Source: Promicromonospora sp. AC04 (GTDB lineage Bacteria > Actinomycetota > Actinomycetes > Actinomycetales > Cellulomonadaceae). Taken from it: a stretch of DNA of 64,000 nt. Below the pieces are notes generated by a model. The model did not search any database, was not told where the DNA came from, and saw nothing but the letters and a program-made list of their open reading frames with translations. Position numbers and translations under genes: made by a program. The stretch spans positions 248,001-312,000 of the forward strand of contig NZ_QBUG01000004.1 in NCBI RefSeq assembly GCF_003058225.1, given 5' to 3'. The stretch's first letter is position 1. Every line of letters starts with the position of its first letter. Shown in pieces: positions 12,984 to 25,951 of the stretch.

Positions 12984-13535
12984 ATGACCCTTACGGTGCT
13001 CGCCGTCTGCACGGGCAACATCTGCCGCTCCCCCGCCGTCGAGACGCTCCTGCGCGGCGTCCTCGACACCTCCGTCGTCGTCGGCAGCGCCGGGACGAAC
13101 GCAATGGTCGGTCACCCGATCGCCGAACCCATGGCCGAGCTCCTGACTGCCGGCGGGTTCCCGCCGGTCGGCTTCGCCGCGCGGCAGCTCACCACCGACC
13201 TCATCGAACAGGCCGACCTGATCCTCGCCCTGACCCCCCAGCACCGCGCCGACGTCCTCGAGTACGTGCCGTCAGCCGTGCGCCGCACCGTCACCGTCGG
13301 TGAGCTGGGCCGGCTGTCGAGCACCCTGATACCGGGCGCCGTCGTCGGGCAGGACGACGCCGCCCGGCTCGCCGCTCTCCTGCCCGCCGCCCTCCAGGAG
13401 CGGCCGCGGCACGTCGGCCGCCACCACGACGACGGCGTCGTGGACCCCTACGGACACTCCGCCGCCACCTACCGACGCTCCTACGACCAGATCCTCGACG
13501 CACTGACCCCGGTGATGGCCGCGCTGCGCGCGTGA
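12984..13535 (+). CDS. low-molecular-weight protein-tyrosine phosphatase (Wzb-like)
   Basis: 183 residues. The catalytic P-loop VCTGNICRS (Cys9, Arg15) is at the N-terminus, and VVDPYG near residue 155 supplies the general-acid aspartate. It dephosphorylates phosphotyrosine and is the expected counterpart of the BY-kinase at 3655-5322, which is 7.7 kb away on the opposite strand. ATG 12984 is preferred to the upstream in-frame ATG 12942 because GAGAGG lies 8 nt ahead and homologues start at the first beta strand. Confidence 0.88.
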   Translation: MTLTVLAVCTGNICRSPAVETLLRGVLDTSVVVGSAGTNAMVGHPIAEPMAELLTAGGFPPVGFAARQLTTDLIEQADLILALTPQHRADVLEYVPSAVRRTVTVGELGRLSSTLIPGAVVGQDDAARLAALLPAALQERPRHVGRHHDDGVVDPYGHSAATYRRSYDQILDALTPVMAALRA

Positions 13536-13599
13536 TCCGGTCCGGCGGAATTCACCCGGGGCACGGCCTGTGACAACGGGCTTGACGACCTCTTGTCCG

Positions 13600-13605
13600 T
13601 ACACT
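13600..13605 (+). promoter_or_regulatory. candidate -10 for a leaderless DUF2530 transcript
   Basis: TACACT is followed after 6 nt by the GTG at 13612, the spacing expected for transcription starting at the initiation codon. No SD is present. Confidence 0.45.
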
Positions 13606-13611
13606 GGCCAG

Positions 13612-13872
13612 GTGCCAACGATCCGCTCCCTGCTGGCCCACCCCGAGGAGCGTCGGCCCAGCCCGCCGGCCCCGCGCGCCGACCTCTACCGGGTCTTCGG
13701 CGCGGGTGTCGGCCTGTTCGCGATCGGGCTGATCGTTGCGCTGATCCTGCTCCTCACCGGTCACGGCAGCGTCGAGTCCGTCGCGATCTGCGGCACGGGG
13801 ATCGTGCTCGGCGGACTCGGTCTGCTCTGGGCCCGCCGCCAGAAGCGACGGCAACAGCAGCCACCGGCGTAG
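13612..13872 (+). CDS. small two-helix membrane protein, DUF2530-like
   Basis: 86 residues: a proline-rich N-terminus, a first membrane helix (VGLFAIGLIVALILLLTG), the motif VAICGTGIVLGGLGLLWARR forming a second helix and ending in a basic cluster, then a Gln/Pro tail. This pattern fits the small actinobacterial DUF2530 membrane family of unknown function. GTG 13612 is chosen because the upstream GTG 13570 extension reads through a promoter-like element and has no SD. It is convergent with the sacsin-like gene; the 16-bp repeat array lies between them. Confidence 0.65.
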   Translation: MPTIRSLLAHPEERRPSPPAPRADLYRVFGAGVGLFAIGLIVALILLLTGHGSVESVAICGTGIVLGGLGLLWARRQKRRQQQPPA

Positions 13873-13893
13873 CGGCTGGGCGCCCGGCGCTCC

Positions 13894-14115
13894 GTTCCTG
13901 GTGTGCTCCGTTCCTGACCCAGTTCTCTGCCGCACCCAGTTCCTGCCGCACTCAGTTCCTGCCGCACTCAGTTCCCTGGCGCACCCAGTTCCTGGCGCAG
14001 TCGGTTCCTGGCGCACTCGGTTCCTGGCGCACTCGGTTCCTGGCGCACTCGGTTCCTGGCGCACTCGGTTCCTGGCGCGCTCAGCCCCAGGCACGCTCAG
14101 CCCCAGGCGCGCTCC
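13894..14115. repeat. 14-unit tandem array, 16-bp unit, running into the 3' end of the sacsin-like gene
   Basis: Fourteen units based on GTTCCTGGCGCACTCG follow one another. Units starting at 14004, 14020, 14036 and 14052 are identical; outer units vary, and three are 12 or 17 nt long. The last two have diverged to a GCCCCAGGCxCGCTCx form and contain the TAG/TGA end of the sacsin-like gene (stop 14097-14099). Because 16 is not a multiple of 3 the array is frame-breaking and reads open in several frames on both strands; no real protein is encoded by it. There are no spacers, so it is not CRISPR. Confidence 0.93.
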
Positions 14116-17100
14116 GCGCTCAGCTCTACCGCACGTGCCGGGTCGCGCAGCGCCGCCTCCAGGAGGAGTGCGTCCGCCCCCGTGAGCTCGGCCAGCGCTC
14201 GGGCAAGGCCCTCGGGCGAGACGGCGTGCGCGACAGCGCGCCGGTCCGCGCTCGTTGTGCCCGCACCCGTTGTGCCCGCGCCCGTCGTGTCCCCGCCCGT
14301 CACGGCCCCGCCCGTCACGTCCGCCGACACCCACCAGGCAACGGGCTTGCCCTCCACAGTCAGCGTGTCGTGGCGGTGCCAGGTCGCCGGCGCGCCCGGC
14401 ACGAGGGCCCGGACCCGCGGGTCGAGCTCGACCAGCTCGCCGGGGTCGTCGGGGGTGATGTCCGAGTCGCCCTCGAACGGGAGGTCCAGCAGGTCGGCGA
14501 GCGCCTCGGCGACGTCGGCCGGTGCGGGGACCACCGGGCCGAGCTGGGCCCACTGCGGCGAGGCGGCGACCGCGAGGTCGTCCGTGCTCTCCACCGTGAT
14601 GCCGGCGGGGCCAAGCGCGGGCAGCCTGGCCGGCGCGAAGGCGCGCGAGTCGTCGGCACGCGACTCGGCGGCACGCGAGTCGTCGGCGCGGGCGAGCGCG
14701 GCCAGACCCGACCAGACGGCCCGGGCGACATCGACGGACAGCCGCGCAGGCTTCTCCCCGTCCGCCCCGGGCAGGCGCTCCAGGACCGCCGGCCAGTCGT
14801 GTCCGGGCAGGTCAGCAAGGTTGTGCAGGCCACCGAGCGCGGTCAGGAGGTCCGCGCCGAGGCCGGCGGTCTCCGGCGGGGCCGTCGGCAGCAGCGGCGT
14901 TTCCACGAGGGCGAACGGCCCGCCGAGACGCCGCCGCAGGAACCACGCCGTGTACGACGCCGCCTCCCGGCCTGGGGCGTCCGGCGAGCGCACGGGTGTC
15001 AGGAGCGCGCGGCGCAGGTCGGGCTCGGCGGAGATGCGGGCGAGCGCCGCGGCAAGCGGGCTCCGCTCGGGATCGGCGTCTGCCGTGTCCCGCAGCGCGT
15101 CGAGGTCGGGGACCGCCTCCGCGTCCCCGATCCATGCGCCGGGGCCGAGCTCGTCCGCGAGAAATTCGAGGTACTCGTCCCAGTCGGAGAGCCAGCCGGC
15201 GGGGTCGTCGGGACCGTAGTCGGCGTCCTCCGTATCGTCCGCGTCGGGCGTCACGACGTCGACGACGTGGTAGACGCCCAGCTCGGCGCGCGCCCCGGCA
15301 GCACCGAGGGTCTCGTCGCCCCAGCGTTCGACGACGCCGTCGCGCACCGCGGCGAGGTCCAGGTTCCGCGCCGCCCAGGTACCGGGCAGCGCCGCCTCGC
15401 GCAGCGGGACGACGCCGTCGTCCGCCACGACGGGAAGCTCCCCCAGCCAGAAGGGGAGGCCCTCCGGGCCGACGTCGGCGATCGCGAGCTGAACCAGCTC
15501 GAGCACTGCCGAGACGGTCTCGGCGGGCGTCGGATCGTCGGGTGCCCACGACTCGCCGGGCGTCGGATCGTCGGGTGCCCACGACTCGCCGGGCGCCGCA
15601 CCAGCCGATGGCCCTGCCGGCAGGGCAGCGCCGAGGCGGTCGGCATCGCCGTCGTCCAGCACGTCCTCGGCGGCGGCGAGCGCAGCGGACCGGACCGCGG
15701 CGTCCGCGAGCAGCCCGCGCGGCGTGGTGGACGCGGCGCCCGCCCGCTCCAGGACGGGATGGGCGGCGTCCGGGTGCACCACGCGGACCCCGAGCGCGCG
15801 GGTGATGCCGGCGAGGTGCGGGGCGTCGAGCAGCACGGTCCCGCGGGCGCCGCGGGTCACGCGGCCGTCGGCGAGCGGGAGCGGCGCCCCGGCGACGGCC
15901 TCGAGCACCGCGGGCTCTCCGGCGTGCGCCGCGAGGGCGGCGAGCGCCGCGTGGACGACACGCGGCTCGGGCGGGAGCACCTCGACCAGGTCGGCGAGGT
16001 CGAGGGAGTCGGCCCCGAGCGAGCGCACCAGGGCCTGGTATCGCACGGGGACGGTGACCAGCGGCCGCGGGGCGCCGGCGGCGAGCGCACGGGCGAGCGT
16101 CGGGTCCTCGCCGAGCGGCCCCGCGAGGAAGGCCGCGTCCCGGGGCGCGATCCGCGGCGCCGCGCCGGGCCGGTCCTCGACTGCCGCGCGGGGCCCGTCC
16201 TCGGCCGCCGCGCCGGGCCGGTCCTCGGCAGCCACGCCGAGCCCGTCCTCTCCCGTCGCGCCGGGCCCGACCTCGGCCGCGGCACCCGGCGGCTGATCCG
16301 GCGCGCTCGGCGACAGGAGCGGGGTGTCGCGCAGGGCAGCGGTGGCGGACGCGCGGATCGCGGCGTCGACGTCGCCCGCCGGGAGCCCGGTCGGCACCAG
16401 GCCGAGGACGTCGCGCTCCGCGGCGGGCTCCCCGGAGAACGCATCCTGCCCCTTGGGTCGAGCGCCGAGCTCGCCCAGGAATGCGGCATAGGCGCGGCCC
16501 GCCTCGGCAGCCACCCGGTCCGACGTCGGCCCCGGCAGCACGCCCCGCCGCCCCGGATCTACGGGGAACGACGCGATGAGCAGCGCGGGGAACGTGAGCC
16601 GCACGTCGGTGGGTGTCGGCGCGTGCAGCACCGGGCTCGCCGCCGCGCGGCTCCCTGCCGTGCGGTCTCCCGCCGAGTGGCCTTCCGTCGAGCGGCCCTC
16701 CGTCGAGCGGCCCTCCGTCAAGCGGCCCTCCGTCAAGCGGCCCTCCGCCGAGCGGATCCCCGCCGTGGGCAGCGCCCAGAGCACCGACCAGTCCGGACGG
16801 CGCGCCTCGGACGGCAGCGAATCGTCCGGTCCCAGCGCCCCGGACGCCCGGTACACGCACCACCGCGATCCCACGTCGCGCAGCACGCGCGAGTTCGCCG
16901 ACGGCGCCATGCCGCCGGGTTCAGAACCCGGCTGACCTGCGAAGTCATCCTCGATCACTACTTCGTCGAGCGCTGGCAGCGCGAGCAGGAGGGCGTCGTC
17001 GACGGCGGCGAGCTGGGCCCGGACGGCGGCCACCGCATCGGCGTCGCGCAGCAGGAGCTCGACCACGGTGTCCGGCTCGTCCGGCGCGGTTCCAGGTGCG

Positions 17101-18197
17101 GGGAACGGGAGGCGCAGCACGGGCAGCGCGGCGCCACGCGCCTCAGCAGCGGCTCTGAGGTCGGTCGGTTGCCGGGCGGCCGAGGTGAGGTCGGTCGGTT
17201 GCCCGGCAATCGAGGCGAGATCGGTCGGTTGCCCGGCAATCGAGGCGAGATCGGTCGGTTGCCCGGCAATCGAGGCGAGGTCGGTCGGTTGCATCGAGAT
17301 CGGTCCGTTAATGGACCGATCTCGATGCAACTGACCGATCTCGCTCTCGGCAGGTGACAACGGACCGAACTCGGCGCCGTCCGGCCCCAGCCCGAGCTCC
17401 GAGCGGGTCGCGGCGAGCGAGAACCGCACGCCACCGTCTCGGGACCGGACGACCACCTCGTCCGATACGGACCGCACAGCAGCGAACCCGACCCCGAACC
17501 GTCCGACCTGGTGTACGGGACCGCCATCGCCGGACCCGCGGTCGCTATACCCGCAGTCGCCGAACCCGCCATCGCCATACCCGCCGGACCCGCGGTCGCC
17601 GGACCCGCCGACACCGGACCCGTCCGGGCCACCCGGCCCACCGGGCCCACCCGGCCCACCCGGCCCACCCGCGCCACGGGACTCCCCGACCTTCGCGGAG
17701 GCGCGCAGGGAGGCCAGCGAGGCGACGCCGTCGGTGTCGAGCGGTGCGCCGGTGTTGGAGGCGACGAGCCACCAACCGCCGCTAGACCTGTCGCCGCCAG
17801 ACCCGCGGTCGCCGTCAGACGTGTCGCCGTCAGACGTGTCGCCGCCGGACCTGTCGCCGTCGGACCTGCCGCCACCAGACCCGCCGCCACCAGACCCGCG
17901 GTCGCCGTCGGACCTGTCGCCATCGGCCCCGTCGCCGCCAGACCCGCGATCGCCATCGGCCCCGTCGCCGCCAGGACCGCGCACCTCCAGACGGAGAGTC
18001 AGCCGCCCCGGCACCCCGGCGCGCGCGGCGGCGTCGGCCGCGTTCTGCGCGAGCTCCACCACCACCCGGTCGCGGTAGTAGCCGCGCGCATGGTCCTCCT
18101 CGGAGTTCGCGTCCTCGCGAAAGCGGGTCGGCGATGCGAGCCACGCCTCGGTCACCGCGCGCCGCAGCGCACCCGTGCCGAAGGGGTCGTGGGTCAC
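14097..18197 (-). CDS. sacsin-like N-terminal ATP-binding (GHKL) protein with many internal repeat tracts
   Basis: 1366 residues. The N-terminus has GHKL (Hsp90-like) ATPase motifs: VVELAQNAADAAAR (N-box), ASNTGAPLDTDGV (G1 box) and VGRFGVGFAAV (G2 box). The rest is a large Leu/Val/Asp-rich region of unknown fold, as in actinobacterial sacsin N-terminal-like proteins. Low-complexity tracts interrupt the ATPase domain and later parts: SGGDGDR-type (about 17780-17990), collagen-like GGP (17627-17680), 30-bp units (17161-17280), 15-bp EGRST units (16667-16757), AEDRPGA units (about 16180-16275) and two 33-bp units (about 15534-15599). All keep frame. GTG 18197 overlaps the DUF3027 stop as GTGA; the open frame continues to 18446, but that would overlap DUF3027 entirely. 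The function is unknown; a chaperone-like ATPase is inferred. Confidence 0.8.
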   Translation of the reverse strand: MTHDPFGTGALRRAVTEAWLASPTRFREDANSEEDHARGYYRDRVVVELAQNAADAAARAGVPGRLTLRLEVRGPGGDGADGDRGSGGDGADGDRSDGDRGSGGGGSGGGRSDGDRSGGDTSDGDTSDGDRGSGGDRSSGGWWLVASNTGAPLDTDGVASLASLRASAKVGESRGAGGPGGPGGPGGPGGPDGSGVGGSGDRGSGGYGDGGFGDCGYSDRGSGDGGPVHQVGRFGVGFAAVRSVSDEVVVRSRDGGVRFSLAATRSELGLGPDGAEFGPLSPAESEIGQLHRDRSINGPISMQPTDLASIAGQPTDLASIAGQPTDLASIAGQPTDLTSAARQPTDLRAAAEARGAALPVLRLPFPAPGTAPDEPDTVVELLLRDADAVAAVRAQLAAVDDALLLALPALDEVVIEDDFAGQPGSEPGGMAPSANSRVLRDVGSRWCVYRASGALGPDDSLPSEARRPDWSVLWALPTAGIRSAEGRLTEGRLTEGRSTEGRSTEGHSAGDRTAGSRAAASPVLHAPTPTDVRLTFPALLIASFPVDPGRRGVLPGPTSDRVAAEAGRAYAAFLGELGARPKGQDAFSGEPAAERDVLGLVPTGLPAGDVDAAIRASATAALRDTPLLSPSAPDQPPGAAAEVGPGATGEDGLGVAAEDRPGAAAEDGPRAAVEDRPGAAPRIAPRDAAFLAGPLGEDPTLARALAAGAPRPLVTVPVRYQALVRSLGADSLDLADLVEVLPPEPRVVHAALAALAAHAGEPAVLEAVAGAPLPLADGRVTRGARGTVLLDAPHLAGITRALGVRVVHPDAAHPVLERAGAASTTPRGLLADAAVRSAALAAAEDVLDDGDADRLGAALPAGPSAGAAPGESWAPDDPTPGESWAPDDPTPAETVSAVLELVQLAIADVGPEGLPFWLGELPVVADDGVVPLREAALPGTWAARNLDLAAVRDGVVERWGDETLGAAGARAELGVYHVVDVVTPDADDTEDADYGPDDPAGWLSDWDEYLEFLADELGPGAWIGDAEAVPDLDALRDTADADPERSPLAAALARISAEPDLRRALLTPVRSPDAPGREAASYTAWFLRRRLGGPFALVETPLLPTAPPETAGLGADLLTALGGLHNLADLPGHDWPAVLERLPGADGEKPARLSVDVARAVWSGLAALARADDSRAAESRADDSRAFAPARLPALGPAGITVESTDDLAVAASPQWAQLGPVVPAPADVAEALADLLDLPFEGDSDITPDDPGELVELDPRVRALVPGAPATWHRHDTLTVEGKPVAWWVSADVTGGAVTGGDTTGAGTTGAGTTSADRRAVAHAVSPEGLARALAELTGADALLLEAALRDPARAVELSAERAWG
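17161..17338. repeat. 30-bp tandem repeats ending in a 26-bp inverted repeat, inside the sacsin-like gene
   Basis: Units starting TCGGTCGGTT occur at exactly 30-bp steps (17161, 17191, 17221, 17251, 17281) and encode GQPTDLASIA. The last unit becomes the left arm (17281-17306) of an inverted repeat whose right arm is 17313-17338: 26-nt arms, one mismatch and one interior change, 6-nt loop. The hairpin is translated in frame as RDRSINGPISM. Confidence 0.93.
17617..17990. repeat. collagen-like and SGGDGDR-type in-frame repeats in the ATPase domain
   Basis: About 17627-17680 is a 9-bp repeat encoding GGP steps. About 17780-17990 is an irregular 15/18-bp repeat encoding Ser/Gly/Asp/Arg runs. Both lie between GHKL motifs, as insertions in loops, and keep the reading frame. 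Confidence 0.85.
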
Positions 18198-19027
18198 GCG
18201 GGGGATTCGCCACCCGCGGGCACCTCGTCCGCCTCGGACACCGCCTCGACCTCGTTCTCGTCGATCAGCGGCGCGGGCGCCGGCCAGTCGGTCGCGTGCG
18301 CCTCGACGTCGGTCTCCGAGTGGGCGCCGCAGCCGTGGTCGAGGGAGACCACCTTGCCGTCGTCGGGCGACCACTCGTTGGCGCACACCCCGAAGAGCTG
18401 GCCCATCGGGCCGGACAGCGGGATGAGGAACGCGCAGGCCATGCACTCGGCGGCCGCCGCGACGGCCCCGGCGGACGTCGGCCCGCGCGAGCCGCGGTAC
18501 CAGCGCTCGGCGGCCTCGTCGCGGCCCTGCGGGGACAGGACGCGGGCACGGGCGAGCGCGAGCTCGTCGATCGCCACCTCGTCGACCTCTGGGTCACCCG
18601 TCGAGGTGTACCCGGGCTCGAGCCGCGGGTCGTCGGCGCGGAACGGCAGCACGTCGCCCGGGCCGACGTCGCCCGGGCGCAGCCGCTCGGACCACGGGAG
18701 CCAGGCCGGGGCGAGGACCGCATCGGAGCCGGGCAGCAGCTCGACCTCGCTGATCGTGGCGGTCCGGCCGCGCGGCACGCGCGTCACCGTGACCGTCCAG
18801 TGCCAGCCGCGGTACCCCCGCATGGTCGCCGCGAAGCGGTGCGAGACCACCCGCTCGTCCTCGAAGAGGGTGCCGAGGTGCTCCCCGACGTCGTCCGGTC
18901 GCTCAGCCACCTCCTGCGCGGCGGCGCGCGCGAGCTCGGCCGCACCGTTCAGCACGGCGTCTCGGCTCGAGCGTGCGGCGACCCGCCGGGTGGGCGTTCG
19001 TGTGGCGGGCGCGGTGATCGTCACCAT
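18194..19027 (-). CDS. DUF3027 domain-containing protein
   Basis: 277 residues of the actinobacterial DUF3027 family, function unknown. Recognizable parts are FEDERVVSHRFAATMRGYRGW, the WSERLRPGDVGPGDVLP block and a cysteine-rich section with CMACAF, GVCANEW and DHGCGAHSE, which could bind a metal. The C-terminal 40 residues are acidic. The gene lies 23 bp after the cold-shock gene and its stop overlaps the GTG of the sacsin-like gene, so the three form one transcript. ATG 19027 is annotated; GTG 19024 has better SD spacing (GAGGA, 5 nt). Confidence 0.87.
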   Translation of the reverse strand: MVTITAPATRTPTRRVAARSSRDAVLNGAAELARAAAQEVAERPDDVGEHLGTLFEDERVVSHRFAATMRGYRGWHWTVTVTRVPRGRTATISEVELLPGSDAVLAPAWLPWSERLRPGDVGPGDVLPFRADDPRLEPGYTSTGDPEVDEVAIDELALARARVLSPQGRDEAAERWYRGSRGPTSAGAVAAAAECMACAFLIPLSGPMGQLFGVCANEWSPDDGKVVSLDHGCGAHSETDVEAHATDWPAPAPLIDENEVEAVSEADEVPAGGESPA

Positions 19028-19050
19028 GTTCCTCGGGACCTCGTGGGGGT

Positions 19051-19425
19051 TCAGGCGTCGAAGTCGTCTGCGACCTTGCGCAACATCTTGGCAAGCATCT
19101 CCGAGTTCTTCGGATAGCGCCCCTTGCGCAGGTCAGTTGCGACGCGGTCGAGCATCTGCGTGAGGTCGGCGACGAGCACAGCCATGTCGTCGGGGTCCTT
19201 CCGCTTCGCCTTGGCGACCGACGGCGCGGCGTCGAGCACCTTGACCGCGAGCGCCTGCGGACCGCGGCGGCCGTCGGCCACTCCGAAGTCCACGCGTGCG
19301 CCCGGCTTCGGGACGACGCCGTCGGGCAGGGCCGAGGCGTGCAGAAATACCTCGCCTCCGTCCTCGTTGGCGATGAAACCGAAGCCTTTGTCGGTGTCGA
19401 ACCACTTGACCTTGCCGGTGGGCAC
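19051..19425 (-). CDS. cold-shock domain protein with C-terminal extension
   Basis: 124 residues. The first 65 or so are a cold-shock domain with RNP1 (KGFGFI) and RNP2-like (EVFLHASAL) motifs. The last 60, including DDMAVLVADLTQMLDRV and KGRYPKNSEMLAKMLRKVADD, form a helical extension absent from CspA. Single-stranded RNA/DNA binding is expected. The start is GTG 19425 with AAGAAGG upstream. It leads the csp-DUF3027-sacsin-like operon; the 194-bp region 19426-19619 upstream is non-coding and presumably carries its promoter. Confidence 0.9.
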   Translation of the reverse strand: MPTGKVKWFDTDKGFGFIANEDGGEVFLHASALPDGVVPKPGARVDFGVADGRRGPQALAVKVLDAAPSVAKAKRKDPDDMAVLVADLTQMLDRVATDLRKGRYPKNSEMLAKMLRKVADDFDA

Positions 19426-19619
19426 TGCAACCTTCTTCTGTGCTTGTCGATACTGCTCGCGGAACTGCTCATAGCGGCCCGGGCTGCTGCGACTGAGCGC
19501 GCCACCTCCGGCCGAAGCACAAGGTTACCGGGCGGAAGGCTGCCGCGTCGCATGCATTGGGCGTACTTCGCCCGTACCGCCTGCCCGACGCCGGCACCCG
19601 GCCGCCCGATCGCTCGGTT

Positions 19620-20354
19620 TCACACCCCGATCCCCAGGTCCGCACCGAACCGGAGCGCCACCTCGTCGAGCCACGCCTCAGGGTCGGCGACGGGGCCGAC
19701 CAGGTGCCCGAACAGCTCGAACGAGATGGTGCCGAAGAGCGCCGTCCATGCCATCAGGGTGCGGCGGATCGTCTCGGGCAGCGCCTCGTCGGACAGGTCG
19801 GTCTCCCGCATCAGGCCGTGCTCCGCGAGGAACTCCAGCGCGGGCGCGACCGTGCCGGGCGCGGCGGCGGCCCCGGACAAGGGCACGACCGCCGGGCGCG
19901 CCCCCGCCGCGTAGGCGTCGCCGACGATCCCCACGAGCACGCGCACGACGCGCGTGGCCGGCGCGACGGTGTCCCGCGGCGCGGCGTAGCCGGGTACCGG
20001 AGTGCCGTACAGCAGCCCGAACTCGCCCGGGTGCGCGACGCACCACGCCCGCACGGCGCGGAAGGTGGCGAGCCAGCGGGCGGTCGTGTCCGCGCGGTCG
20101 GCGACGGCGGCGTCCGCGGCCTCGGCGGCGGCGCCGAGCTCGTCGTACGCCTCGATGAGCAGGGCGGTGAGCAGGGCGTCCCGGCTCGGGAAGTACCGGT
20201 ACACGGCCGAGGACACCATCTCGACGTCGCGCGCGACGGCGCGCAGCGACAGCGCGGCGGGGCCGTCGGTGGTCAGCCGCGCGCGGGCCGAGTCGAGGAT
20301 CTCGCGGGTGATCGTCTCGCGGGCAAGGGCGCGGGCGGTGCGGGCCGGACTCAT
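19620..20354 (-). CDS. TetR/AcrR family transcriptional regulator
   Basis: 244 residues. The N-terminal helix-turn-helix is clear (LSLRAVARDVEMVSSAVYRYF, SRDALLTALL), with a C-terminal ligand domain of the type seen in many actinobacterial TetR proteins (VRAWCVAHPGEFGLLYGTPVPGY). ATG 20354 has GGGAG upstream; the longer open frame to 20594 runs into the divergent gene. It is divergently transcribed from the SDR gene, and two copies of the same inverted repeat lie in the intergenic region, so it very probably represses both genes. Confidence 0.9.
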   Translation of the reverse strand: MSPARTARALARETITREILDSARARLTTDGPAALSLRAVARDVEMVSSAVYRYFPSRDALLTALLIEAYDELGAAAEAADAAVADRADTTARWLATFRAVRAWCVAHPGEFGLLYGTPVPGYAAPRDTVAPATRVVRVLVGIVGDAYAAGARPAVVPLSGAAAAPGTVAPALEFLAEHGLMRETDLSDEALPETIRRTLMAWTALFGTISFELFGHLVGPVADPEAWLDEVALRFGADLGIGV

Positions 20355-20392
20355 GTCTCCCAGGCTGCCATGCCGGATCACTGCACACAAAC

Positions 20393-20407
20393 GAGAGCAC
20401 TGCTCTT
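20393..20407. promoter_or_regulatory. TetR operator copy 1
   Basis: GAGAGC-ACT-GCTCTT, an inverted repeat with 5 of 6 arm positions matched, centred at 20400 between the divergent TetR and SDR starts. It matches the second copy at 20450-20464. Confidence 0.75.
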
Positions 20408-20449
20408 GCCAAGCGGGATCCCGCGTGCCACGCTTACCGCAGGACAACA

Positions 20450-20464
20450 GAGAGCACCGCTCTC
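20450..20464. promoter_or_regulatory. TetR operator copy 2
   Basis: GAGAGC-ACC-GCTCTC, a perfect 6-bp-arm inverted repeat centred 57 bp from copy 1 and 18 bp before the SDR start codon, where bound repressor would block transcription or early elongation. Confidence 0.78.
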
Positions 20465-20481
20465 GGAATGGAGCATCGATC

Positions 20482-21402
20482 ATGTCTGACAGCCACCTCA
20501 TCGTCGGCGCCGGCCCCATCGGCCGCCACGTCGCCGCCCTCCTCGCCGACCGCGGTTCCCGCGTCACCGTCGTGAGCCGCTCGGGCCGCAGCACCGGGAT
20601 CGACGGCGTCCAGCACCTCGCCCTCGACGCCTCCGATCCCGACGCCCTGGCCCGCGCCGCCGAGGGGACCGACTACCTCTACAACTGCGCCAACCCGGCC
20701 GACTACACCCAGTGGGAGCGGGTGTGGCCGCCGCTCGCCGCCTCGCTGCTGTCCGCCGCCGAACGCTCCGGCGCCGTCTACGCCATCACCGGCACCCTCT
20801 ACCCCTACGGCCCCGTCGACGTCCCCATCTCCGAGGACCTGCCCGAGGCCGCCACCGACCACAAGGGCCGCCTCCGGGCCCGGATGTGGGCCGAGGCCAG
20901 GGCAGCGCACGACGCCGGGCGCATCCGCGCCGTCGAGATCCGCGGCTCCGACTACATGGGTCGCGGCGTCGGCGGCAACGGCCACATCTCGCGCCTGGTG
21001 CCGGACGCCCTGCGCGGCAAGCGCGCGCTGATGATGGGCCGCACCGACCTGCCCCACACCTTCACCGACGTGCACGACGCCGCCCGCACGCTGGTCGCGG
21101 CCGCCGAGGACCCGGGCGCCCACGGACGTGTCTGGCACGTCCCGAGCAACCCGCCGGTCGCGCAGGCACAGGCCCTGACCGACGTGCTCGCAAGCGTGGG
21201 CAAGCCGCCCGTGAAGGTCTCCTCCCTGCGCGGCGCAGGGCTCGCGGCAGCCGCCCTGGCCGTCCCCTTCATGCGGGAGATGCGCGAGATCATCTACCAG
21301 TGGGAGCGGCCCTACGTCCTGGACGACTCCGCCGCCCGCGCCCGTTTCGGCATCGCCCCGACCCCGTGGGACGAGGTCTGCCGCCGCACCGCGCAGGGCT
21401 GA
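20482..21402 (+). CDS. NAD(P)-dependent epimerase/dehydratase-like (SDR, atypical) protein
   Basis: 306 residues. The N-terminal Rossmann motif HLIVGAGPIGRHVAALL is followed by a second strand ending VTVVSRSGR and by DYLYNCANPADYTQW. TGTLYPYGPVDVP precedes the active-site region, but there is no clear YxxxK: the equivalent stretch is KGRLRARMWAEARA. It may be a reductase or just an NAD(P)-binding protein. ATG 20482 follows GGAG at 8 nt, 18 bp after operator 2. It is likely the target of the divergent TetR protein; the substrate is unknown. Confidence 0.82.
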   Translation: MSDSHLIVGAGPIGRHVAALLADRGSRVTVVSRSGRSTGIDGVQHLALDASDPDALARAAEGTDYLYNCANPADYTQWERVWPPLAASLLSAAERSGAVYAITGTLYPYGPVDVPISEDLPEAATDHKGRLRARMWAEARAAHDAGRIRAVEIRGSDYMGRGVGGNGHISRLVPDALRGKRALMMGRTDLPHTFTDVHDAARTLVAAAEDPGAHGRVWHVPSNPPVAQAQALTDVLASVGKPPVKVSSLRGAGLAAAALAVPFMREMREIIYQWERPYVLDDSAARARFGIAPTPWDEVCRRTAQG

Positions 21403-21463
21403 CCCGCCCCCGGGCGTGGTACGGCCGGACTTCGGCCCAGGAAACCCGCGTAGCATCGTCAGG

Positions 21464-24211
21464 ATGGCCTCCTCGCTCCCCGCAGCGCCGGCGGCGGCCA
21501 CGCGGCACTTCGCCGACGACCTCCGGCAGCGCTCGGACACCGCGCTCGCCGCGCTCCTGCGCGCCCGTCCTGATCTTGCCGCTCCATCCCCCTCGACACT
21601 TCGCTCGCTCGCAGCCCGTGCGTCGAGCCGCACCTCGCTCGAACGCGCTCTCGCGCGCACCGACGCCCTGACCCTGCAGGTCCTGGAGACGGTGCTCGCG
21701 CTCGAGCCGGTCTTCCGGGCCCCGCCCGAGTCGCAGGGCCCCCGCGAGGTACCGGAGCGGAGCGACCACACCCCGCCGGGTGCGGGCGCCGGCGGGCCGC
21801 CGCCCGGACCCCTCAGCACCGAGGTGGTCAGCTGGGCGCTCGGCGGGTCCGCGGAGGACCGGCCCCGGGTCGAGGCCGCCGTGCGCCTCGCCGTCGAGCA
21901 GGCCCTGCTCTGGGACGCCGGGCCCGGTCCCGACGTCGAGGGCGGCGAGGCGTCAGCAGGCCCGGGCACCGCCCTGGTGGCGCCCGTCGACCTGCGCACA
22001 ACGCCCGGGCTCGACGAGCTGCTCGGCCCGAACCCCGCGGGCCTGGGCCCGCACCTCGACCCCGTCCCGGAGGGGCTGACCGAGGCGGTCAGGCGGTCGC
22101 TCGGCTCGGCTCCCGGCCCGGCCGAGACGGCCGCGGCGCTCGACACGCTCCTCGCCGGGGCACCCCCCGGCGCCCGCACGATCCTCGACGCGCTCGCCTG
22201 GGGACCGCCGGTCGGCGTCGTCCCGCCCGCGGGATCCCGGCCGCGCGACGCGGTGAACTGGCTGGTCACCGAGCATCTCCTGGTCCGGTCGGACGCCCGG
22301 CACGTGGTCCTGCCGCGCCTGGTCGGGCTGGCGCTGCGCGGCGGGCACACCCACCGCCAGCCGCACACCCGCGCACCCGGGCTGCAGGGCCGCACGGTCC
22401 GCACCGCCACCGTCGACGCCGAGGCCGCGAGCGCCGCGCTCGAGCTGGTCCGCCGCGTGCGGGTGCTGCGGCAGTACTGGGACGGCCACCCGCCGTCGGT
22501 CCTCCGGGCGGGTGGCCTGGGCGTGCGCGACCTGCGCCGGGTCGCCGTCCAGCTCGAGGCGGACGAGCGCGCGACGGCGTTCGTGATCGAGGTCGCCGCC
22601 CTGGCCGGCCTGGTACGGGACGACGGCGACGCGCCGCCGTCGTACGTGCCGACCGTCACCGACTGGGACGACCTGGACGACGCCACCCGCTGGGCCCGGC
22701 TGGTCGAGGCCTGGCTGGCCTCCCGCCGTGCGCCGTGGCTCGTGGGCTCGCGGGACGACAAGGGCGCGCTGCGTGCGCCGCTGTCGCCCGACCTGCAGCG
22801 GCCGTGGGTGCCGCGCCTGCGCAACGGCGTGCTGGGGGTGCTCGCCGCCGGGTCGGCCGAGGAGACCGTGCTCGCGCCGGCTCCCGGCGCGGTCGTCGAG
22901 GTGCTGACCTGGCACACGCCCCGCTCCGTGCCGCCCGCGAGCGCGGTCGAGGGCCTGCTGGCCGAGGCGGAGTGGCTGGGCGTGACCGGGGCCGGCGCGC
23001 TGTCGACGCCGGGCCGCGCCCTGCTTCCCGTCCCACCCGACCAGCCCCAGGTACCGGGCGCCATCGCCGCTGCGCTGCGTGCGGTCCTCCCCCACGAGGT
23101 GGACGAGATCCTGCTGCAGGGCGACCTCACGGGGATCGTCCCGGGCCGCCCCACGCGCGAGCTGGCGCGGCTGCTGGAGCGGTCCACGGACATCGAGTCG
23201 CGGGGCGCCGCGACGACCGTGCGGTTCAGCCCGGCGTCGGTCACGAGGGCGCTCGACCAGGGCGAGACCGCTGACGGCCTGCTGGACGAGCTGGCCCACC
23301 GGTCGCCCGTGCCCGTCCCGCAGCCCCTGGACTACCTGGTCCGGGACACCGCCCGGCGGCACGGCGCGGTGCGCGTGGGTTCGGCGTCGTCATACCTGCG
23401 GGCGGCCGACGCCACCGTGCTCGCCGGGCTGGAGCACGACCCGACGCTCGTCAGCCTGGGCCTGGTGCGGCTCGCGCCCACCGTGCTCGCGGCGTCGGTT
23501 CCCGCGGCCACCCTGCACGAGACCCTGCGCAGCCGTGGCCTGGTCTCGGCCCTCGAAGGGCCGGACGGCCAGGTGCTCGTCGCACGCCGGGGCGTGACGG
23601 GCCGGGCGATGCCGGCCCCGCGCTCGGCGGCCGCGATCCGGATGGGCTCCGCGTCCGACGTCGCAACCCGCACGCCCGATCCCGAGGCCCTGGTCGCCGA
23701 GCTGCGCGCCGTCGAGACGGCGGCGCGGGCCGGTGCACGGGCGCGGGCGGACGCGGCCGAGGTGGCGCACTCCGTGACGGCGACCGGCGGCGGCATCCCG
23801 CTGCGCGGCTACCGTGTGGTCGGCAGCCGGCTGAACCGGGTGAGCACTGCAGAGGTCCCGCCGGGGCCGACCGGTCCCCCGGTGCCGCCCGCGCCGACAA
23901 ACGGGGCGGCCGCGCGCGGCGCCACGCCGGGCGAGAGCCCGGCCGTCAGCCCGGGAGTCGACCCGGAGGACGACGACCCGGGAACACAGCACCCCGCTGA
24001 CGGGTTGGCACTGCTACGCGACGCGCTCCGCGACGGTTCCACGGTGATCGTCGAGGTGGCCGGGCACACCGGCCGGCTGGAGCGCCGCGAGCTGAAGCCC
24101 CTGAACCTCGACGGCGGCAGGCTCCGCGCGCTCGACCCGGACAGAGAGGCCGAGCTGACGATCGCCGTCCACCGCATCGCGTCGGTCCTGCCGACGTCGT
24201 CCACGCCGTAA
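21464..24211 (+). CDS. helicase-associated domain protein (XPB partner)
   Basis: 915 residues. Large actinobacterial protein encoded directly before XPB. It starts with a Ser/Ala-rich helical segment and contains winged-helix-like repeats, then the helicase-associated region visible as DEILLQGDLTGIVPGRP, RGAATTVRFSPASVTRAL and VRVGSASSYLRAAD. The C-terminus (ALLRDALRDGSTVIVEVAGHTGRLERRELKPLNLDGGRLRALD) is a WYL-like domain. ATG 21464 is preceded 7 nt away by TAGCAT and has no SD, so a leaderless transcript is likely; the frame is open to 21416. It probably works with the helicase in DNA repair or transcription; the direct role is unproven. Confidence 0.85.
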   Translation: MASSLPAAPAAATRHFADDLRQRSDTALAALLRARPDLAAPSPSTLRSLAARASSRTSLERALARTDALTLQVLETVLALEPVFRAPPESQGPREVPERSDHTPPGAGAGGPPPGPLSTEVVSWALGGSAEDRPRVEAAVRLAVEQALLWDAGPGPDVEGGEASAGPGTALVAPVDLRTTPGLDELLGPNPAGLGPHLDPVPEGLTEAVRRSLGSAPGPAETAAALDTLLAGAPPGARTILDALAWGPPVGVVPPAGSRPRDAVNWLVTEHLLVRSDARHVVLPRLVGLALRGGHTHRQPHTRAPGLQGRTVRTATVDAEAASAALELVRRVRVLRQYWDGHPPSVLRAGGLGVRDLRRVAVQLEADERATAFVIEVAALAGLVRDDGDAPPSYVPTVTDWDDLDDATRWARLVEAWLASRRAPWLVGSRDDKGALRAPLSPDLQRPWVPRLRNGVLGVLAAGSAEETVLAPAPGAVVEVLTWHTPRSVPPASAVEGLLAEAEWLGVTGAGALSTPGRALLPVPPDQPQVPGAIAAALRAVLPHEVDEILLQGDLTGIVPGRPTRELARLLERSTDIESRGAATTVRFSPASVTRALDQGETADGLLDELAHRSPVPVPQPLDYLVRDTARRHGAVRVGSASSYLRAADATVLAGLEHDPTLVSLGLVRLAPTVLAASVPAATLHETLRSRGLVSALEGPDGQVLVARRGVTGRAMPAPRSAAAIRMGSASDVATRTPDPEALVAELRAVETAARAGARARADAAEVAHSVTATGGGIPLRGYRVVGSRLNRVSTAEVPPGPTGPPVPPAPTNGAAARGATPGESPAVSPGVDPEDDDPGTQHPADGLALLRDALRDGSTVIVEVAGHTGRLERRELKPLNLDGGRLRALDPDREAELTIAVHRIASVLPTSSTP

Positions 24212-24253
24212 GCCGCAGCTGAGCAAGACCAGAGCAAGACTGAGGGAGACTCC

Positions 24254-25951
24254 ATGCCCGACGGCCCGTTGATCGTGCAGAGCGACAAGACGCTCCTGCT
24301 GGAGGTCGACCACCCGAGCGCCGAGCAGGCGCGCCGCTCCATCGCGCCGTTCGCCGAGCTCGAGCGCGCGCCCGAGCACGTGCACACCTATCGCCTGACG
24401 GCGCTGGGCCTGTGGAACGCGCGCGCGGCCGGCCACGACGCGGAGCAGGTCGTGAACACGCTCATCGAGTTCAGCCGCTACCCGGTGCCGCACGCGCTGC
24501 TGGTCGACGTCGCCGAGACGATGGCCCGCTACGGGCGCCTCGTGCTTTCGCAGGACCCGGCGCACGGCCTCGTGCTGCGCACCACCGACAAGGCGGTCCT
24601 CGCGGAGGTGCTGAAGTCGCGGCGCACGGCGGGCCTCGTCGGCGAGCGCCTCGACGAGTCCACGGTGGCGGTGCACCCCTCCGAGCGCGGCCACCTCAAG
24701 CAGGTCCTGGTCAAGCTCGGCTGGCCGGCCGAGGACCTCGCGGGCTACGTCGACGGCGAGAAGCACCCGATCGAGCTGAGTCCGGTCACCAAGCCGCGGA
24801 CGCCGCACGAGAAGGCCGCCGCCTGGGAGATGCGGCCGTATCAGGCGCAGGCCGTGGACGGCTTCTGGCACGGCGGCTCGGGCGTCGTGGTACTGCCCTG
24901 CGGCGCGGGCAAGACGATCGTGGGCGCGGGCGCGATGGCGAAGTCCGGCACGACCACGCTGATCCTGGTGACCAACACGGTGAGCGCGCGGCAGTGGCGC
25001 GACGAGCTGGTGCGCCGGACGACCCTCACCGAGGACGAGATCGGCGAGTACTCCGGCGCCCGCAAGGAGATCAAGCCGGTCACCATCGCGACCTACCAGG
25101 TGCTCACCACCAAGCGGAAGGGCGTCTACACGCACCTCGAGCTGCTCGACGCGCGCGACTGGGGCCTCGTCCTGTACGACGAGGTGCACCTGCTGCCCGC
25201 CCCGGTCTTCCGGATGACGGCGGACCTGCAGGCCCGACGCCGCCTCGGCCTGACCGCGACGCTGGTGCGCGAGGACGGCCGCGAGGACGAGGTGTTCAGC
25301 CTGATCGGGCCCAAGCGGTTCGACGCGCCCTGGAAGGACATCGAGTCCCAGGGCTACATCGCGCCCGCCGACTGCGTGGAGGTGCGGCTCACGCTCCCGG
25401 AGAGCGAGCGCATGACGTACGCGACGGCCGAGCTGGAGGACAAGTACCGGCTGGCCGCGTCGGCGTCGGGCAAGAAGAAGGTGGTGGAGCAGCTCGTGGC
25501 GCGCCATCCCGACGACCAGGTGCTGGTCATCGGGCAGTACCTCGACCAGCTCGAAGAGCTGGCCGAGCACCTCGGCGCGCCGATCATCACCGGGGCGACC
25601 ACCAACAAGGAGCGGCAGCGGCTGTTCGGGGCGTTCCGTGAGGGCGAGATAACGCGCCTCGTGGTGAGCAAGGTCGCCAACTACTCGGTGGACCTGCCGG
25701 AGGCGTCGGTGGCGATCCAGGTCTCGGGGTCGTTCGGGTCGCGGCAGGAGGAGGCGCAGCGCCTCGGGCGCATCATGCGGCCCAAGGCCGACGGCCGCAC
25801 AGCGCACTTCTACGCGGTGGTCGCGCGCGACACCGTCGACCAGGACTTCGCCGCCCATCGGCAGCGGTTCCTGGCCGAGCAGGGGTACGCGTACCGCATC
25901 GTGGACGCCGAGGACCTGGACGAGTCGCCGGCCGATTCCTCGGCCCCCTGA
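24254..25951 (+). CDS. DNA repair helicase XPB
   Basis: 565 residues, superfamily 2 helicase. Residues 1-180 hold the XPB-specific N-terminal region. PCGAGKT (215-221) is Walker A, DEVH (309-312) is motif II, RED (339-341) is the XPB signature, and QRLGRIMR near the C-terminus is motif VI. It unwinds DNA 3'-5' with ATP hydrolysis and is related to the archaeal/eukaryotic repair helicase. ATG 24254 has GAGGGAG 7 nt upstream. It lies 42 bp after the helicase-associated gene, in the same direction. Confidence 0.95.
   Translation: MPDGPLIVQSDKTLLLEVDHPSAEQARRSIAPFAELERAPEHVHTYRLTALGLWNARAAGHDAEQVVNTLIEFSRYPVPHALLVDVAETMARYGRLVLSQDPAHGLVLRTTDKAVLAEVLKSRRTAGLVGERLDESTVAVHPSERGHLKQVLVKLGWPAEDLAGYVDGEKHPIELSPVTKPRTPHEKAAAWEMRPYQAQAVDGFWHGGSGVVVLPCGAGKTIVGAGAMAKSGTTTLILVTNTVSARQWRDELVRRTTLTEDEIGEYSGARKEIKPVTIATYQVLTTKRKGVYTHLELLDARDWGLVLYDEVHLLPAPVFRMTADLQARRRLGLTATLVREDGREDEVFSLIGPKRFDAPWKDIESQGYIAPADCVEVRLTLPESERMTYATAELEDKYRLAASASGKKKVVEQLVARHPDDQVLVIGQYLDQLEELAEHLGAPIITGATTNKERQRLFGAFREGEITRLVVSKVANYSVDLPEASVAIQVSGSFGSRQEEAQRLGRIMRPKADGRTAHFYAVVARDTVDQDFAAHRQRFLAEQGYAYRIVDAEDLDESPADSSAP

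Follow-up and report, generated by a model that had tools for sequence, protein, structure and literature searches.

Introduction

One of the described systems that lie closest to the genes considered here is CspB, a cold-shock protein of Mycobacterium tuberculosis. According to the available text of the report that includes its crystal structure (9XW3), CspB carries a tail that forms a dimerizing helical hairpin, the dimeric protein binds small RNA (sRNA) with a dissociation constant (KD) near 1e-10 M, and a tail of this kind is absent from other bacterial Csps (PMC12840758). The same text states that no Hfq, ProQ, or CsrA is found in mycobacteria to date. In the available part of a second report, M. 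smegmatis lacking cspB shows decreased biofilm formation and increased tolerance to H2O2 (PMC12300830). Here, we describe a locus in which a gene for a CspB-type cold-shock protein (csp) is followed by genes for a DUF3027 protein and a GHKL (Hsp90/sacsin-like) ATPase. The locus lies within a 64-kb stretch of DNA from Promicromonospora sp. AC04, referred to in its entirety as the window, whose class in this analysis is Actinomycetia.

The DUF3027 family itself appears in the literature mostly as table entries. SCO4330 is tabulated among actinobacterial signature genes (PMC4255298) and Rv0877 is tabulated as DUF3027 (PMC7781554), as far as the accessible portions of these papers go, while the accessible portion of a third paper describes mutants whose actinorhodin was reduced or lost, in which six genes, SCO4330 among them, were each hit by more than five insertions (PMC6585502). 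The loss of actinorhodin is the only prior lead to a DUF3027 function that we found, and the present analysis adds the linkage of DUF3027 to CspB and to the ATPase. Among open-licence papers, we found none that links the csp, DUF3027, and ATPase genes.

Results

The csp, DUF3027, and GHKL ATPase genes form a tight cluster at 14097-19425 of the window, and all three are encoded on the minus strand, as are the protein features within them for which coordinates are given below. The csp gene (19051..19425) encodes 124 amino acids from a GTG start, the DUF3027 gene (18194..19027) encodes 277 amino acids from an ATG start, and the ATPase gene (14097..18197) encodes 1366 amino acids from a GTG start. 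A spacer of 23 bp (19028-19050) separates csp from DUF3027, and the TGA of DUF3027 shares 4 bp with the GTG of the ATPase gene (GTGA, 18194-18197). A preliminary description of this DNA had reported the three-gene arrangement together with the 23-bp gap and the GTG overlap, and both the window coordinates and the profile matches bear this out. Since the arrangement is conserved across genomes, it is not due to chance. Of the named genomes in the collection, that of Promicromonospora sp. MEB111 is the nearest relative, its DUF3027 being 94% identical.

The csp product matches the cold-shock domain (CSD) profile PF00313 with 60.2 bits (cut-off 27) over residues 3-62, after which comes a tail of approximately 60 residues, just as the preliminary description had it. 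In terms of window coordinates, the CSD (residues 1-64) occupies 19234..19425, and alignment places a helical tail, which corresponds to the hairpin of the M. tuberculosis ortholog and includes an LRxGRYP turn, at residues 81-124 (19054..19185). Four tail residues (D87, L92, G102, and P105) are invariant in an alignment of 54 proteins, namely that of the window and the products of 53 among the 95 csp genes located near DUF3027. When compared using phmmer, residues 2-123 of the window Csp match residues 1-133 of M. tuberculosis CspB (9xw3_A) with an E value of 3.3e-31, and the match covers the tail. Judged by sequence, the window csp is an ortholog of mycobacterial CspB. The earlier statement that none of the three proteins has an experimentally fixed role therefore fails for Csp, given that the available text on the M. 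tuberculosis ortholog reports both a structure (9XW3) and measured RNA binding (PMC12840758).

We examined the occurrence of these families in samples of 196 genomes of the class, 297 genomes of the order, and 246 genomes of the phylum. The tailed CspB is present in 196/196 class genomes, with a single match in each, and DUF3027 is likewise present in 196/196, with two matches in 2 of them. Thus, the possibility raised in the preliminary description that the families rarely co-occur does not apply to this pair, both members of which were found in every class genome. In the phylum sample, DUF3027 occurs in 25 of the 246 genomes, every one of which belongs to the window's class, and the tailed CspB occurs in the very same 25. 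DUF3027 was found in 291 of the 297 order genomes, leaving 6 that lack a match. Two genomes of 0.8-0.9 Mb (L168 and L169) have a tailed CspB and no DUF3027 match, and the gene adjoining their csp is clpC-like by eye. Because these two genomes keep CspB alone, CspB is able to exist without DUF3027. A third order genome without DUF3027 has its tailed CspB on a contig that apparently ends about 1.5 kb beyond, and the other three, which are in 250 to 580 contigs, have matches of CSD length only.

The two genes are also close to one another. Among 100 loci, csp lies directly upstream of DUF3027 in 53, and in 7 more the DUF3027 open frame reads back into csp; another 33 have csp at a greater distance upstream and on the same strand (just 218 bp in one of them), 2 have it on the other strand, and in 5, including the long loci L062 and L087, it was not found. 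Of the 93 loci of at least 18 kb, 91 have csp no more than 9 kb from DUF3027, and the next most frequent neighbors are a helicase-associated gene (66), an XPB helicase gene (50), and an NCS2 permease gene (50). We also measured distances across the class sample, using the 126 genomes that have a csp place among the matches listed and leaving out genomes in which either of the two genes had no listed place. Among those matches, both genes are on one contig in 116/126 genomes and are within 10 kb of each other in all 116; csp is upstream in 104, downstream in 1, and on the opposite strand in 11. The remainder comprises 9 genomes with the genes on different contigs and 1 genome without a DUF3027 place. 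In three genomes of 1.2-1.5 Mb, csp and DUF3027 are adjacent with their order swapped, such that DUF3027 comes first.

The ATPase is less widespread. At a threshold of E 1e-20 or better, it was found in 64/297 order genomes and 105/196 class genomes; leaving out genomes with weak matches to the N-terminal part alone (7 in the order and 1 in the class, with frames of approximately 1420 to 1600 amino acids) reduces these counts to 57/297 and 104/196, respectively. With the ATPase in just these fractions of the genomes, the core of the cluster is CspB-DUF3027, and the ATPase is an optional add-on. The grouping of all three genes had earlier been proposed to be conserved in the order, and what stands of this proposal is the two-gene csp-DUF3027 core; the ATPase is not general in the order and is more common across the class sample.

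Where the ATPase is present, it usually lies beside DUF3027. For these distances, we used one place per gene, leaving out rows from weak paralogs matching only the N domain as well as any second piece of a split gene that lies on a different contig (that of G383 was kept). Of the 58 ATPase places in the order, 53 are directly preceded by DUF3027 on the same contig and strand, with 65 to 1542 bp between the two matches, and the other 5 have no DUF3027 place listed on that contig. In the class, the ATPase is on the same strand and at most 1.6 kb downstream of DUF3027 in 73 of 104 genomes; of the rest, 3 are farther downstream within 10 kb, 5 are on the opposite strand within 10 kb, 7 are more than 10 kb away, 10 are on another contig, and 6 are unlisted. 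A single family, f91, holds 15 of the 17 class ATPases that lie more than 10 kb off or on another contig. Among the 82 class genomes outside f91 for which a DUF3027 place is listed, 80 have the ATPase no more than 10 kb from it. In the three f91 genomes examined, csp and DUF3027 are still together. With each ATPase start set according to its match with the window protein, the 4-bp overlap of DUF3027 and the ATPase gene is seen in 19/39 loci and in 18/20 among the close relatives of the window. In a quickly built DUF3027 tree with 100 rows (ATPase present in 39, absent in 54, and unknown in 7), presence of the ATPase beside DUF3027 changes at least 9 times, which fits repeated loss, and the tree of the ATPase itself groups mostly by family. 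The DUF3027 tree and the ATPase tree both place L029, a record titled Sphaerisporangium cinnabarinum, with Cellulosimicrobium, and the title is a probable mislabel.

The DUF3027 protein of the window matches PF11228 with 290 bits (cut-off 25) over profile positions 1-192 of 193, and it appears to have two parts. The N-terminal domain (residues 30-106; 18710..18940) probably comprises a helix and a four-strand sheet of cystatin-like topology; structural matches fall mainly on residues 21-106 and hardly reach the second part, which carries a C-terminal CxxC-C-C-H motif (C195, C198, C215, C233, and H236; 18320..18445). All five of these residues are retained in 67/67 aligned DUF3027 proteins, an alignment that leaves out four proteins consisting of the N-terminal half only (L146-L149). 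The motif is a probable zinc site, and the preliminary description of DUF3027 as an uncharacterized and possibly metal-binding protein is upheld to that extent by the invariant Cys/His set. A search of solved structures with DUF3027 gave four matches. Three, at E 5e-4 to 1.6e-3, are scavenger-receptor-type chains aligned along a brief segment with Cys residues, and the fourth, at E 1.1, is a methanol dehydrogenase; we regard these matches as chance. The same search with P0001 and P0002 singly gave no match. Proteins with only part of DUF3027 were also seen. In L146-L149, from families f2 and f5, the DUF3027 match is cut down to its N-terminal half and csp still adjoins it; in the proteins of this kind that were read (L022-L025), an acidic tail follows that half. 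Families f2 and f5 together include 49 genomes with a weak DUF3027 match, with absence of the zinc part seen directly in 4 proteins, and neither family has a strong ATPase match. This pattern lends weak support to a link between the ATPase and the zinc part, because many families with full-length DUF3027 are also without the ATPase.

The ATPase carries a GHKL nucleotide-binding signature. For its alignment, we used the window protein and 29 of 39 relatives, leaving out divergent members such as those of f91 and of L139 and L142. The N box ELAQN (18042..18056) contains E48 and N52, each of which is the same residue in 30/30 aligned proteins, and G232, G235, and G237 of the G2 box GRFGVGF (17484..17504) are likewise unchanged in 30/30. 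The G1-box region NTG (17748..17756) lacks the GHKL-typical Asp: the column of Asn148, which aligns with the Asp of HtpG, holds Asn in 29/30 proteins and Ser in 1/30. A profile of the ATPase family matches the HtpG N domain with an E value of 1.7e-6. The window protein itself scores 44.4 bits against NCBIfam P_loop_sacsin (cut-off 50) and 12.9 bits against Pfam SACS (cut-off 32.8), whereas SACS matches at E <= 0.01 were obtained for 23 of 30 family members, with 1.6e-8 as the best value. Thus, of the earlier label "sacsin-like" ATPase, the GHKL signature is sound, and formal assignment of the window protein to the sacsin models is not. Its low scores may be due in part to in-frame minisatellites that interrupt the N-terminal domain. 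Outside the N domain, no Pfam model matched the ATPase at the thresholds used. Several genomes encode a second sacsin-like family elsewhere, which matches the ATPase profile in its N domain only; the frames range from 1423 to 1779 amino acids, and most have 1550-1610.

A minisatellite cluster lies within and just downstream of the ATPase gene (13920..17981, no strand assigned), and 26 of the 30 tandem-repeat rows (score >= 70) of the window fall in it. Repeats cover 24.6% of the ATPase gene and 1.4% of the remaining window. Every row that starts within the gene has a unit that is a multiple of 3, and a 16-bp unit makes up the arrays at the ATPase stop and immediately beyond. Given that multiples of 3 are usual outside the gene as well (278/346 rows in 39 loci), selection for the reading frame is a suggestion only. 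A general richness in tandem repeats across the ATPase family was considered and rejected, since the gene is the denser part in only 14 of 39 loci (Wilcoxon p 0.13); the extreme content is limited to the window's copy, and no enrichment was seen in 38 relatives.

A consensus scan of 13400-21500 detected no terminator-like site between the three genes, and a sigma-70 consensus scan detected no promoter-like site anywhere in the same interval. By eye, a -10-like TAACCT (19522..19527, minus strand; no match in the sigma-70 scan) is found inside CCGGTAaCCTtG upstream of csp. Also by eye, CCGGTAaCCTtG is common to about 13 of 19 aligned upstream regions, and such conservation would fit a candidate promoter preceding csp. 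Genes for a Helicase_C_3 protein and an XPB/ERCC3 helicase occupy 21416-25951 on the strand opposite to csp; such genes lie no farther than 9 kb from DUF3027 in 66 and 50 of the 93 long loci, respectively.

Discussion

We propose that the cluster encodes an RNA-handling module of the class Actinomycetia, and we assign this reading a probability of roughly 0.4. In this module, the dimeric RNA-binding protein CspB would be the base. DUF3027, which is acidic and combines a putative cystatin-like domain with a probable zinc site, would be its dedicated partner or adaptor, binding CspB or CspB-RNA complexes and controlling their loading or release. The sacsin-like GHKL ATPase, present in about half of the sampled class genomes, would dock on the zinc part of DUF3027 and spend ATP to remodel or recycle the complex that DUF3027 holds. 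This assignment of base, adaptor, and add-on engine fits the nested occurrence of the genes, with CspB alone in two genomes and CspB and DUF3027 without the ATPase in many. The gene linkage, the universality in the sample, the nesting, and the conservation of catalytic and metal-ligand residues are observations, and it is likely that the linked genes share a pathway. Beyond this, the parts of the proposal differ in strength. We put direct contact between DUF3027 and CspB at about even odds and are slightly less confident that the ATPase works through DUF3027; that the substrate is RNA complexes is doubtful, and ATP-driven remodeling is something we infer. As for the earlier suggestion of an RNA- or ribosome-linked quality-control or stress module, we retain a conserved module in which an uncharacterized, probably metal-binding protein joins an RNA-binding protein to an Hsp90-like ATPase; a stress function is not supported.

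Several results weigh against this proposal. The separation of csp from DUF3027 is 1.4 to 8.2 kb on the same strand in 32/100 loci, csp is on the opposite strand in 2/100, and it was not found in 5/100. Of the 17 f91 genomes with an ATPase, 6 have it more than 10 kb from DUF3027, 9 on another contig, 1 adjacent, and 1 unlisted, and its neighbors in two of the three f91 genomes examined are MarR and ThpR genes. Outside f91, the ATPase is on the opposite strand (within 10 kb) in five class genomes and 17 kb off in one f6 genome. We found no fusion of any two of the three proteins in 378 open frames with a match from 165 loci. Because all of the genomes belong to one class, the universality reflects few independent events. 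Finally, in mirror-tree tests neither DUF3027-csp nor DUF3027-ATPase correlates more strongly than DUF3027 does with the helicase-associated neighbor. With XPB as species proxy (n=50, L146-L149 left out of this first set), the partial r is 0.26 for DUF3027-csp and 0.43 for the DUF3027-helicase-associated control, and in a set of 27 loci the correlations are 0.59 for DUF3027-csp, 0.47 for DUF3027-ATPase, and 0.66 for the control. With control correlations higher, co-evolution by mirror-tree is uninformative as support.

The failure of the mirror-tree tests to single out csp would also be expected if these genes were conserved neighbors without a shared pathway, in an old gene order of the class kept through a common promoter or the rarity of rearrangement. 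Other neighbors are conserved too (the XPB helicase pair, NCS2 permease, MarR, and MFS genes in 42 to 66 of 93 loci), but csp, at 91/93, is clearly above all other tested neighbors, the csp-DUF3027 pair is still adjacent in the three small genomes of changed order, and the ATPase, gained or lost beside DUF3027 at least 9 times, is nevertheless within 10 kb of it in 80/82 class genomes outside f91 that have a listed DUF3027 place. We regard mere neighborhood as rather unlikely on this evidence. It is unlikely, too, that DUF3027 and the ATPase form a protein-folding or remodeling pair, a client chaperone like sacsin or HtpG, with CspB merely co-expressed. The ATPase N domain does resemble those of HtpG and sacsin, the latter reported as a chaperone in the available part of PMC3710099, and its linkage to DUF3027 is tight; the constant companion of DUF3027 is CspB, however, and with DUF3027 found in 196/196 class genomes against 104 for the ATPase, DUF3027 must have some function independent of the ATPase.

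A cold- or heat-stress operon, as proposed in the preliminary description, would suit the names Csp and Hsp90-like as well as the altered biofilm and peroxide tolerance of the M. smegmatis cspB deletion (PMC12300830, available part). In that same part of the report, though, peroxide tolerance is higher after cspB loss, the opposite of a protective role; retention of the pair in genomes of 1.2-1.5 Mb suggests housekeeping, and the available text of the literature consulted gave no data on temperature for either DUF3027 or the ATPase. Such an operon is, in our view, improbable. Still more so is a role of the ATPase in an anti-phage defence system. The PADLOC profile TmtA, which has no stated cut-off, matches the ATPase with 51.8 bits (E 9e-15), its best stretch covering only positions 79-327 of 1538. 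The ATPase is mostly at a fixed place by core genes and its tree is mostly by family, and the longer frames elsewhere that share only the N domain (mostly 1550-1610 amino acids) may be nearer TmtA relatives.

The RNA-handling module could be taken one step further, with CspB as the class's stand-in for Hfq or ProQ and DUF3027 with the ATPase stripping or reloading CspB from tightly bound RNAs at the expense of ATP, although we consider this version distinctly unlikely. If ATP-driven release did take place, an Hsp90-type engine would be acting on RNA-protein complexes and not on protein folding, and if the ATPase acts on the same complexes as CspB, the Hsp90 superfamily would extend into RNA-protein remodeling. 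DUF3027, present in every sampled class genome and near the tailed Csp, offers a concrete gene for the question of how mycobacteria handle small RNAs.

When compared with known systems, the ATPase resembles the sacsin N-terminal domain and HtpG/Hsp90 in its GHKL nucleotide-binding signature, with the catalytic Glu and the Asn alike, and differs from them in having the G1-box Asp replaced by Asn. The DUF3027 protein is a clear member of its family (PF11228, 290 bits; SCO4330 and Rv0877). Hfq and ProQ are, to our knowledge, unrelated to CspB, and neither works with an ATPase partner. The tight sRNA binding of CspB suggests a job similar to theirs, as the available text on the M. tuberculosis protein proposes (PMC12840758). 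With that protein (9XW3), the window Csp shares the CSD and the helical-hairpin tail, matching it over the full length. The account of M. tuberculosis CspB in PMC12840758 makes no mention, in its available text, of a DUF3027 partner and presents the tail as unique among bacterial Csps, whereas in our sample the tail is found class-wide.

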